From positions 1 through 64,000 of the forward strand of contig CABXQE010000003.1 in the NCBI GenBank assembly GCA_902514295.1: DNA of 64,000 nt, read 5' to 3'. Positions within the stretch are counted from its first letter, which is position 1, and each line of letters starts with the position of its first letter. The stretch comes from an uncultured SAR86 cluster bacterium. Lineage in GTDB: Bacteria; Pseudomonadota; Gammaproteobacteria; Magnimaribacterales; Magnimaribacteraceae. The position numbers were made by a program, and so were the translations under genes. This document shows, piece by piece, positions 16,710 to 50,714 of the stretch. Under the pieces are notes generated by a model that made no database searches, had not been told where the DNA came from, and saw only the letters and a list, made by a program, of their open reading frames with translations.

Positions 16710-18299
16710 ATGAGCACAGTAGTTGAAACGCACGATCACGACGGACACCACGGGCCCGCGAAAGGACTCACAAGATGGTTGTTTACTACAAACCATAAAG
16801 ATATAGGTACTCTTTATTTGTGGTTTAGTTGCCTCATGTTATTCATTGGCGGTGGCATGGCTATGGTAATAAGAGCAGAGCTATTCCAGCCCGGATTGCA
16901 GATTGTACAACCTGAATTCTTTAATCAGATGACCACCAACCATGGATTGATAATGGTTTTCGGAGTCATTATGCCCGCTTTCGTTGGTCTTGCTAATTGG
17001 ATGATTCCTATGCAAATCGGTGCTCCTGATATGGCCCTACCCAGGCTTAATAATTTAAGTTTTTGGCTTTTGCCTATGGCCTTTGGAATACTACTATCTA
17101 CGCTTTTCATGCCAGAGGGAGGACCTAATTTTGGCTGGACATTCTATGCTCCATTATCTACAACTTATGCGCCATCAACTGTTAACTTCTTTATATTTTC
17201 AGTGCACGTTATGGGAGTTTCTTCGATCCTTGGGTCGATCAACATAATAACCACAATCTTTAACATGAGAGCTCCTGGTATGGCGCTTATGAAAATGCCT
17301 CTCTTTGTTTGGAGTTGGTTAATAACAGCCTATTTATTAATAGCGGTTATGCCTGTTTTAGCAGGCGTTGTAACAATGATGCTAATGGACATAAATTTTG
17401 GAACCAGCTTCTTTAATGCTGCCGGAGGTGGAGACCCTGTTTTATTTCAGCACGTTTTTTGGTTTTTTGGGCACCCAGAGGTTTATATTATGATCCTCCC
17501 GGCTTTTGGAATTGTTTCTCATATAATTGAAACTTTCTCTAGAAAGCCAATTTTTGGATATTCTTCAATGGTTTACGCCATGGCATCGATAGCAATACTA
17601 TCTTTTGTTGTTTGGGCTCATCACATGTTTACTGTGGGGATGCCTTTAGCGGGTGAGTTATTCTTTATGTATTCAACTATGCTCATAGCTATACCCACAG
17701 GTGTGAAGGTATTTAATTGGGTAGCTACTATGTTTAGAGGTTCGCTGACTTTCGAAACACCAATGTTATTTTCAATAGGTTTTGTGACACTATTCACTAT
17801 AGGCGGCTTTTCAGGATTAATGCTTGCAATAGTCCCAGCCGACTTTCAATATCACGACACCTATTTTGTTGTAGCCCATTTTCATTACGTTCTAGTACCG
17901 GGCGCACTTTTTGGAATCATGGCAGGTGTTTATTATTGGTTACCTAAATGGACTGGAAATATGTATGACGAAACGTTGGGCAAGCTTCATTTTTGGCTCA
18001 CTTTTATTTCTGTAAACGTAACTTTCTTTCCAATGCACTTTGTTGGCTTGGCAGGCATGCCCAGAAGATACCCTGATTACGCTCTTCAATTCGCTGACTT
18101 TAACGCGATGATAAGCGTGGGAGCTTTTATGTTTGGAATTACTCAGTTGCTGTTTTTATTCATAGTTATAAAGACCATCAGGTCAGGGAAGCAAGCAAAG
18201 CCAGAAGTTTGGGAAGGGGCAGGAGATTTAGGTTTAGAGTGGACTTTAAGTTCGCCTCCTCCCTACCATTCTTTTACCGTTCAACCACAAGTTAAATAG
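16710..18299 (+). CDS. coxA: Cytochrome c oxidase subunit I
   Basis: This 12-helix subunit holds heme a and the heme a3-CuB centre where oxygen is reduced. The 529-residue protein has heme a ligand region MTTNHGLIMVFG, the CuB motif WFFGHPEVYI with the cross-linked His and Tyr, WAHHMFTVGM, and the DTYFVVAHFHYVL block with the a3 and a ligands. The N-terminus HDHDGHHG is His-rich. A Shine-Dalgarno-like AAGGATGAG precedes it. It lies 13 bases after coxB, as usual. Confidence 0.97.
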   Translation: MSTVVETHDHDGHHGPAKGLTRWLFTTNHKDIGTLYLWFSCLMLFIGGGMAMVIRAELFQPGLQIVQPEFFNQMTTNHGLIMVFGVIMPAFVGLANWMIPMQIGAPDMALPRLNNLSFWLLPMAFGILLSTLFMPEGGPNFGWTFYAPLSTTYAPSTVNFFIFSVHVMGVSSILGSINIITTIFNMRAPGMALMKMPLFVWSWLITAYLLIAVMPVLAGVVTMMLMDINFGTSFFNAAGGGDPVLFQHVFWFFGHPEVYIMILPAFGIVSHIIETFSRKPIFGYSSMVYAMASIAILSFVVWAHHMFTVGMPLAGELFFMYSTMLIAIPTGVKVFNWVATMFRGSLTFETPMLFSIGFVTLFTIGGFSGLMLAIVPADFQYHDTYFVVAHFHYVLVPGALFGIMAGVYYWLPKWTGNMYDETLGKLHFWLTFISVNVTFFPMHFVGLAGMPRRYPDYALQFADFNAMISVGAFMFGITQLLFLFIVIKTIRSGKQAKPEVWEGAGDLGLEWTLSSPPPYHSFTVQPQVK

Positions 18300-49129: not shown

Positions 49130-49196
49130 AATTTCCCCCAAACATTAAGTATACCCAAGTTTAAAAATAAAAATAAACTTAATTGAAGACTAAGAA

Positions 49197-49916
49197 CTAA
49201 ATATTAGAAAGGAGTGCATCTCTATTTTTTATATGGCAGTCTTTATTAGAGATATTCACAAAACCCTCTTCATTTAATTCCTTTAAAGCTCTGCTCAGAC
49301 TTTCTGGTCTCATCTTTAGTATTTTGGCAATCTCATAGTGATTAATTGGTAGTAGAAATCTATATTCATTCTTTTCGTTTATACCGAGTTTAGAGCTGGT
49401 GATCAATATCCAAGAACATATTCTTTTTTTGATGTTGCCATTGGATATTGTTTGACTCCATTTAAGTTGTTTTGAGAGCTGACTGCTTATGGCCTTACTG
49501 GCATGGATTGCCATTTCGGGCTCTTGTTTAGCAAAGGTCTCTAGCTCATGGTAATTTATTCTGCACACATCTGAGTCTTCTTTAGCTATAGCAAAATGTG
49601 AATAGCATTTGAAGGAAATACAATCCAGTGCTAGAAATTCCCCTGGATAAAAGATGCCCTCAATTAGTTCTTCTCCTTTCTCGTCTAAACTATAAGTTTT
49701 AAGACATCCAGAACGTATGACATATATAGAAGAGAAAACATCTCCCTGGCTATACGCAAGAGAGCCTTTGAGTAAGGTGATTTGAGTAGAAATAGTAGAA
49801 GCTATCTGATCTAGGTAATCACTAGAAACAACGTCATTTACTATGCTTTCAGGCATGCATAGGTGCTTATAGTTACAAACCTTACACAATGGTGAAGAGT
49901 TAGCTAAGAGCGTCAT
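49197..49916 (-). CDS. fnr: FNR/Anr-type oxygen-sensing transcription regulator
   Basis: This 239-residue Crp/Fnr protein keeps all four cysteines of an oxygen-labile [4Fe-4S] cluster: C11, C14 and C20 (CKVCNYKHLC) and C118 (SDVCRINYHEL), aligned with C20, C23, C29 and C122 of E. coli FNR. The recognition helix holds E205-x-x-S208-R209, the FNR contacts for TTGAT-N4-ATCAA. A perfect site of that type lies at 50255. The gene overlaps the upstream coiled-coil gene by 17 bases. It should switch gene expression between oxic and low-oxygen states. Confidence 0.93.
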   Translation of the reverse strand: MTLLANSSPLCKVCNYKHLCMPESIVNDVVSSDYLDQIASTISTQITLLKGSLAYSQGDVFSSIYVIRSGCLKTYSLDEKGEELIEGIFYPGEFLALDCISFKCYSHFAIAKEDSDVCRINYHELETFAKQEPEMAIHASKAISSQLSKQLKWSQTISNGNIKKRICSWILITSSKLGINEKNEYRFLLPINHYEIAKILKMRPESLSRALKELNEEGFVNISNKDCHIKNRDALLSNI

Positions 49917-50082
49917 TTTTATTCAGTATAGCCTCTATGGAATAAATCTCAGATTTAAGTTCTTCTATTTGATATTTGCTCCCAGTCCAAAAGTTCAACC
50001 CATTCTCGTCTTCTATTTTTGCGAGGTCTTGTTTTATAGTTACTAATCTTAATTTCAATTCTTTTATAAGGGAACTATCCAT
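49900..50082 (-). CDS. Small coiled-coil protein of unknown function in the fnr operon
   Basis: The 60-residue product is soluble, charged and mostly helical: KELKLRLVTIKQDLAKIEDE then a short GLNFWTGSKYQ linker and EELKSEIYSIEAIL, a helical hairpin pattern. I do not recognise a family. It overlaps fnr by 17 bases and the upstream membrane microprotein by 8, so its translation is locked to both. Its place suggests a link to FNR or to respiration, but nothing in the sequence shows a function. Confidence 0.6.
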   Translation of the reverse strand: MDSSLIKELKLRLVTIKQDLAKIEDENGLNFWTGSKYQIEELKSEIYSIEAILNKNDALS

Positions 50083-50203
50083 ATAGGTTCCCTAGATATA
50101 TTGAAAATCCCAATAAGATTATCCATGACAACATGCAGACCAAACCGACTACTGCTAGCCTTTTTAATGCAATGGAATCTTCTTTAGGCCACTCTTTTTT
50201 CAT
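50075..50203 (-). CDS. 42-residue single-helix membrane microprotein at the head of the fnr operon
   Basis: This ORF is short but well supported. It has an ATG at 50203 with AAGAGAAG upstream, a charged N-terminus (KKEWPKEDS), one hydrophobic helix at about residues 15-38 and a short tail ending YGNLYG-like in the order YLGNLYG. Its stop lies inside the start of the coiled-coil gene, an 8-base overlap typical of coupled genes. Small single-helix proteins often serve as oxidase or transporter subunits. No match to a known one, such as CcoQ, could be made from memory. Confidence 0.6.
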   Translation of the reverse strand: MKKEWPKEDSIALKRLAVVGLVCMLSWIILLGFSIYLGNLYG

Positions 50204-50254
50204 GTAACTTCTCTTATGTAATAAAGAAGTTACTACTAGCTAAAAGTTCATATC

Positions 50255-50268
50255 TTGATTTATATCAA
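50255..50268. promoter_or_regulatory. Perfect FNR/Anr box
   Basis: TTGATTTATATCAA equals the consensus TTGAT-N4-ATCAA. It lies between the divergent fnr operon (start at 50203) and the unknown gene at 50307. The centre at 50261.5 is about 58 bases from the first start codon and 45 from the second, so either or both may be controlled. It suggests autoregulation of fnr. Confidence 0.8.
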
Positions 50269-50306
50269 TTTTATTAGATAAAAGTTAAATAAAGTTATAA
50301 GCAGCT

Positions 50307-50639
50307 ATGAATAGAGACTTTATTTTTCGTTCAATTAAAAAGGATAGTTTGGATTATTTAGGTTATGTACTTAATGTAAGTTCCAAAAAAGAATTATTCC
50401 ATGCAATTTCAGAACTTGGCTTTAACCCTGAAGCTTTAGAATATCGCGCCTTAGAAATTAACTCTAAAGCTATAGCGATTTGCTTACCCTTTAGAGGAAA
50501 TAAAGAGCTAGAAAAATTAGAGTTTTGTTCTTTAAATAAAGTAGAAGAAACATACCTAAGCCCCGAGAGGGATGAAGTTAATTTAAAAGGCAACTCAGAT
50601 TCGGGAACTTTTCCAGCAGATATATTTACTGGTTCATAA
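50307..50639 (+). CDS. Hypothetical 110-residue protein next to the FNR box
   Basis: I do not recognise this protein. It is soluble, mixed helix and strand, with an N-terminal RDFIFRSIKKDSLDYLGYVLN and a central LEINSKAIAICLPFRGNKELEKLEF, each quoted only in part. It has two cysteines and no signal peptide. It begins 38 bases after the FNR box, with TTATAA close to the start codon, so it may be an FNR target. Its stop codon directly touches the tRNA gene. A real gene is likely, given its length and the promoter site, but unproven. Confidence 0.55.
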   Translation: MNRDFIFRSIKKDSLDYLGYVLNVSSKKELFHAISELGFNPEALEYRALEINSKAIAICLPFRGNKELEKLEFCSLNKVEETYLSPERDEVNLKGNSDSGTFPADIFTGS

Positions 50640-50714
50640 TGGGCTAGACAGGATTTGAACCTGTGACCTTCTGCTCCGGAGGCAGACGCTCTATCCTAGC
50701 TGAGCTACTAGCCC
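50640..50714 (-). tRNA. tRNA-Arg (anticodon CCG)
   Basis: On the minus strand the gene folds as a full cloverleaf. The acceptor GGGCTAG pairs with CTAGCCC and is followed by discriminator A. The anticodon stem TCTGC/GCAGA encloses the loop CTCCGGA with anticodon CCG, and the T arm is ACAGG-TTCAAAT-CCTGT. The length is 75 bases. CCA is not encoded. It reads CGG codons, which should be rare in this AT-rich genome. Confidence 0.96.

Follow-up and report, generated by a model that had tools for sequence, protein, structure and literature searches.

The closest described counterparts of the locus examined here are FNR systems of other bacteria. In E. coli, 19 of the 23 activated FNR promoters with a known start have the box at the class II position (PMC3688515), and a second FNR system has few targets, among them a truncated denitrification pathway in which the copper nitrite reductase is under FNR (PMC1802743). 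SAR11 of the northern Benguela carries as accessory genes crp-fnr and nirK, together with ccoNOQP-GHIS and a gene of the R2 type (PMC12816887). For SAR86 itself, the words fnr, cbb3, nitrite and denitrification are absent from the main text of the isolate paper. The locus described here lies in a stretch of 64,000 nucleotides (the window) from the genome of a SAR86 cluster bacterium (G000), and consists of the following features.

49163 to 50638, no strand assigned: the fnr cassette, comprising fnr, the 60-aa and 42-aa ORFs, the box and the 110-aa gene
49197 to 49916, minus strand: fnr, a Crp/Fnr regulator with C-X2-C-X5-C plus C118 and ExxSR, assigned from domains and structure alignment
49900 to 50082, minus strand: 60-aa ORF, second in the fnr operon, probably a coiled coil and carrying the motif GLNFWTG
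50075 to 50203, minus strand: 42-aa ORF with a single TM segment, first gene of the fnr operon
50227 to 50232, minus strand: -10-like hexamer TAACTT on the fnr operon side, 23 nt from the box
50255 to 50268, no strand assigned: FNR box TTGATTTATATCAA, palindromic consensus, common to both divergent promoters
50290 to 50295, plus strand: -10-like hexamer TAAAGT facing the 110-aa gene, at 22 nt past the box
50307 to 50639, plus strand: 110-aa gene of an undescribed family; FNR boxes precede its orthologues at fnr and its paralogues at nirK alike
50640 to 50714, minus strand: tRNA-Arg(ccg), directly after the 110-aa gene, its 3' end being the right-hand cassette boundary

The regulator has a cNMP-binding domain (PF00027, 47.7 bits) and a Crp-type HTH domain (PF13545, 46 bits), both above cut-off. 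In the alignment the cluster cysteines of FNR have all four counterparts, C11-X2-C14-X5-C20 and C118, and the recognition helix reads P-E-S-L-S-R, giving the ExxSR motif that reads TTGAT (E205, S208, R209); all of these residues, to which a first-pass annotation of the window had rightly drawn attention, are invariant in the four genomes with fnr. The nearest solved relatives are FNR structures (5cvr/5e44, E 1.3e-20). The best-scoring model is the NCBIfam Fnr model PRK11161, at 97.1 bits under a cut-off of 228 bits which is a database threshold for one subfamily and not a biological defining feature; we read the protein as a divergent FNR-type regulator by its cysteines and motif, apparently outside the enterobacterial-type Fnr subfamily. 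By the same residues, it is predicted to bind an oxygen-labile [4Fe-4S] cluster and to respond to oxygen. The annotation also held that most regulators have been lost from this compact genome, a statement assessed here for the cNMP-binding (Crp/Fnr) family only, of which Fnr is the sole member detected in the G000 assembly.

Given the annotation's emphasis on a perfect FNR/Anr consensus between the fnr operon and the divergent 110-residue gene, the question of chance has to be addressed. The site is indeed there, and it is the sole exact TTGATN4ATCAA in the window; dinucleotide shuffles nevertheless give an expectation of 0.23 exact boxes per 64 kb, with at least one match in 20 of 100 shuffles, so that the exact match alone is weak evidence rather than the strong evidence it was taken for. 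The genome scan for TTGAT-N4-ATCAA which the annotation had proposed was run on the G000 assembly (1.23 Mb, 79% complete) and found 12 exact sites, or 17 with TTGAY/RTCAA. Two boxes are intergenic and promoter-facing: the fnr/110-aa site, and one at position 104042 of contig 1, 61 bp upstream of an AurF-like gene belonging to a pair encoding AurF-like diiron proteins. The others are intragenic, and the exact boxes among them were treated as chance. A relaxed scan for TTGAN6TCAA with a -10 element gave matches at promoter-facing strict boxes for fnr, the 110-aa gene and AurF only.

The annotation was right on the identity of the site, and it is the comparison among related sequences that makes the case convincing. 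All compared genomes appear to be MAGs or drafts, and fnr is found in four of the 35 family genomes (G000, G010, G014 and G015). The box lies between the fnr operon and the 110-aa gene in G014 (TTGATGTAAATCAA) and in G010 (TTGATCTGGGTCAA), the latter with one half-site base changed (GTCAA); in G015, where no 110-aa gene is present, it lies upstream of a Rieske gene and fnr (TTGATCTAGATCAA). Thus a box is retained at fnr in all four genomes, although the DNA around it is 60-78% identical. Between genomes fnr has a pS of about 0.8 and a pN of 0.16-0.30; since its synonymous sites are near saturation, the boxes look to have been kept by selection. The 42-aa ORF is conserved in G010 and G014 (pN/pS 0.19-0.33) and the 60-aa ORF in G010, G014 and G015, both with synonymous change exceeding non-synonymous change across relatives, and the 110-aa gene is a real coding gene by the same kind of test (pN/pS about 0.32); judged from these substitution patterns, the genes of the fnr locus are under purifying selection.

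The anatomy of the two promoters points the same way. The hexamer spacings of 22 and 23 nt place the box centre at about -40.5 for the 110-aa gene and -41.5 for the fnr operon, the position of a class II activator, when transcript starts are predicted from the -10-like elements; with a hexamer on either side, one box would serve both directions. A TAnnnT 22-23 nt past the box occurs at 18 of 18 promoter-facing sides (every promoter-facing strict box found in the four fnr-bearing genomes, both window sides included) against 7 of 115 intragenic sides (Fisher p 6e-17), and although the pattern was noticed on the same promoters before testing and two of the 18 sides (AurF of G010 and G014) share one sequence and so do not count separately, a contrast of this size withstands both the post hoc choice and the non-independence. 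The arrangement bears on a rival reading, in which FNR would activate the 110-aa gene and repress or ignore its own operon, or the reverse, leaving no true positive autoregulation. One site shared by divergent genes may act asymmetrically, and FNR is able to repress depending on site position (PMC3688515); however, each of the three divergently arranged loci has TAnnnT at class II spacing in both directions, and G015 retains the box and the -10 on the fnr side without the 110-aa gene, and we consider such one-sided use of the box unlikely, if the most serious of the alternatives.

Boxes are also found at other genes in the relatives. In G010 and G014 nirK (TIGR02376, 455 bits) is followed directly by a paralogue of the 110-aa gene with FNR boxes of its own (TTGATATAGATCAA, TTGACCTATATCAA), and is itself preceded by TTGACTTAGATCAA. 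In G010, ccoNOQP-GHIS (ccoN TIGR00780, 763 bits) is behind TTGATTTAAATCAA, and ompW (PF03922) and nrdB are likewise behind FNR boxes; the flanks are typical of the lineage for the cassettes of nirK, norCB and fnr but not for the G010 cco contig, the binning of which is therefore less certain. Both G010 and G014 encode norCB (in G010, 3o0r_B E 5e-98 and 3o0r_C E 7e-15), the promoters of which show a TTGAG half-site variant only and no -10 at class II spacing. In G015, the most complete of the fnr-bearing genomes, we found no promoter box besides the one at fnr.

Some further observations concern these loci. The gene nirK and the 110-aa paralogue form a cassette (L027:747-2659 and L026), and the nirK copies of G010 and G014 share 95% identity, above the value for typical flanking genes, which suggests recent transfer. 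In G010, the box at L056:1972-1985 has class II spacing on both sides and lies between nrdB, for the small subunit of aerobic ribonucleotide reductase, and a PhoPQ-related gene; a basic 118-aa protein of no known family is encoded just upstream of ccoN (L051:2979-3335) behind an FNR box of its own.

The genome of the window itself is poorer in such genes: neither nirK nor a second haem-copper oxidase was found in the 79% complete assembly. At the site syntenic to nirK and the paralogue the flanks are present (92-94% identity) and about 1.9 kb of genes is missing; at the norCB site the flanks are 92-94% identical, about 3.6 kb is missing and its place is taken by a segment of about 550 bp that contains a truncated tRNA-Ile repeat. 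As the flanks are assembled, the absences of nirK and norCB are real at those sites and not assembly gaps. The one haem-copper oxidase found in the assembly is encoded in the window at 16800-18131 (PF00115, full-length match). At the norCB site (contig 14, 18301-18854; L105), a small ORF with a lipoprotein-like start accompanies the truncated tRNA-Ile repeat, which makes this a variable site beside a tRNA. G011, for which the search gave no fnr, has the AurF gene but not the stretch of roughly 150 bp that contains the box; this single comparison fits a box and a regulator that come and go together. The AurF box (L028:6043-6056) overlaps the stop codon of an ORF for a putative 40-aa TM protein, which is absent in G011.

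Set against the annotation's picture of a compact genome that has lost most regulators, fnr is not a retained core gene: it sits in a cassette confined to the four genomes named above and exactly missing in congeners. Position 49162 of the window joins 50639 directly in G012 and G013, with one extra base between, so that the cassette is absent as a unit, and the fnr module is missing at the same site in G011; the genomes lacking fnr are mostly incomplete, and the empty site itself is assembled in these three congeners. Identity between G014 and the window is 60-78% within the cassette and rises to 94-98% in the DNA on either side. The empty sites that were read showed neither an integrase nor a long direct repeat, and recombination between the flanks would be the simplest route for gain and loss. 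In G015, fnr lies at the pssA/tRNA-Ile site, where G014 carries norCB. On the evidence of these junctions, the fnr module is a small discrete cassette gained or lost among close relatives.

The 110-aa gene is present in three family genomes, two of which have a second copy. Searches of its product against Pfam, NCBIfam and PHROGs gave nothing above cut-off, and a profile of the family found no credible match among PDB sequences, Pfam, NCBIfam and PHROGs. The AlphaFold model is poor, with a mean pLDDT of 63, and gave no Foldseek match in the PDB with E <= 0.001. A scan of 84,980 species genomes, confined by its peptide patterns to fairly close relatives, found the family in the two relatives only; viral contigs searched for the family and for FNR gave no match, and hence no sign of phage carriage. 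The annotation had marked the gene as a probable FNR target, and conservation of the box in relatives and the class II -10 spacing support this. We take the protein to be small, cytoplasmic and putatively induced at low oxygen. From the link with nirK, a role beside nitrite reduction or NO handling is our leading guess, with G000 keeping the gene without nirK.

Taken together, we hold with high confidence that the site is a functional FNR box from which FNR would activate in class II fashion both its own operon and the 110-aa gene. At low oxygen a [4Fe-4S] FNR dimer would form and, bound at the box, would act as a class II activator in both directions, probably activating rather than repressing; it would thereby raise its own operon (the 42-aa TM protein, the 60-aa protein and fnr), which amounts to positive autoregulation, and also the divergent gene, whose 110-aa product would be induced under low oxygen. 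In G010 and G014, where the same layout of box and promoter precedes nirK, the 110-aa paralogue, ccoNOQP-GHIS and ompW, the switch would drive micro-aerobic respiration and nitrite reduction. This reading is favoured because the boxes sit at known kinds of FNR target (ccoN, nirK, ompW), because the position of the box is kept in four genomes at a pS of about 0.8, because the paralogue at nirK has its own boxes in two genomes, and because the AurF box is missing where no fnr was found. Against it count the divergence of Fnr, the GTCAA half-site of G010, the poor norCB boxes, the lack of further boxes in G015, and respiratory targets that are missing or unassembled in G000. Of the annotation's proposal of autoregulated oxygen sensing, autoregulation thus gains support from the conserved box, the class II spacing both ways, the cysteines and ExxSR, and the status of Fnr as the sole cNMP-binding-domain regulator; the oxygen response keeps the standing of a prediction.

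DNR-type proteins read a motif similar to the FNR box, and a regulator sensing nitric oxide or some other signal (DNR/NNR-like) through the same DNA motif could account for the boxes; nirK and norCB accompany the system in two relatives, and DNR is itself a relative of Fnr, if a more distant one (3dkw, E 1e-10). DNR, however, is without the FNR cluster cysteines, and here all four are present and invariant in four genomes; the closest solved relatives are FNR, the DNR match scoring well below them, and the poorest box is that of norCB, an operon which often responds to NO. Sensing of this kind therefore appears improbable. That the box is a chance 14-mer without function is scarcely credible: chance would give 0.23 matches per window, and of the 12 exact sites in the assembly 10 are intragenic, but neither the conserved position in four genomes nor the -10 spacing at promoter-facing as opposed to intragenic sides fits with it.

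With the functional, bidirectional FNR box as the preferred reading, a wider and much more tentative proposal is that the 110-aa family is an undescribed component of low-oxygen or nitrite metabolism and that the fnr module is a self-contained, autoregulated, spreading cassette which commandeers respiratory cassettes arriving separately. The protein might, for instance, associate with or protect copper nitrite reductase, or do so for FNR, and the cassette may spread among streamlined marine bacteria.

For G000 our claim stays modest: an FNR autoregulation site of the standard kind. For this streamlined marine gammaproteobacterial lineage, the predicted low-oxygen control is an accessory trait, with regulator, nitrite reductase, NO reductase and probably high-affinity oxidase as separate small insertions, mostly joined by a shared binding site; this makes a testable prediction as to which members should be capable of nitrite respiration or of life at low oxygen, and singles out the 110-aa family as a conserved protein family for study.

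The mechanism is already known, being ordinary FNR autoregulation; what is new is the cassette setting and the FNR-linked protein family. The locus resembles FNR of E. coli and Aliivibrio in its consensus box, the -40.5/-41.5 centre, the CRP fold, the four cysteines and ExxSR (PMC3688515), and differs in its divergent sequence (97 bits), small regulon, proposed positive autoregulation and patchy, cassette-borne distribution (4/35 genomes). G010 and G014 resemble the system of PMC1802743 in their few targets and truncated denitrification with copper nitrite reductase, but add a cbb3 oxidase, AurF-like diiron proteins and the 110-aa family; unlike that system, G000 is without nirK and norCB at their sites. 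SAR11, as far as the available part of the report describes it, is likewise a streamlined marine lineage with accessory crp-fnr, nirK and cbb3 genes, although of a different class; its Benguela genes form one contiguous region, for which that part mentions no small 110-aa family, whereas here separate cassettes at several sites are linked by shared boxes (PMC12816887).
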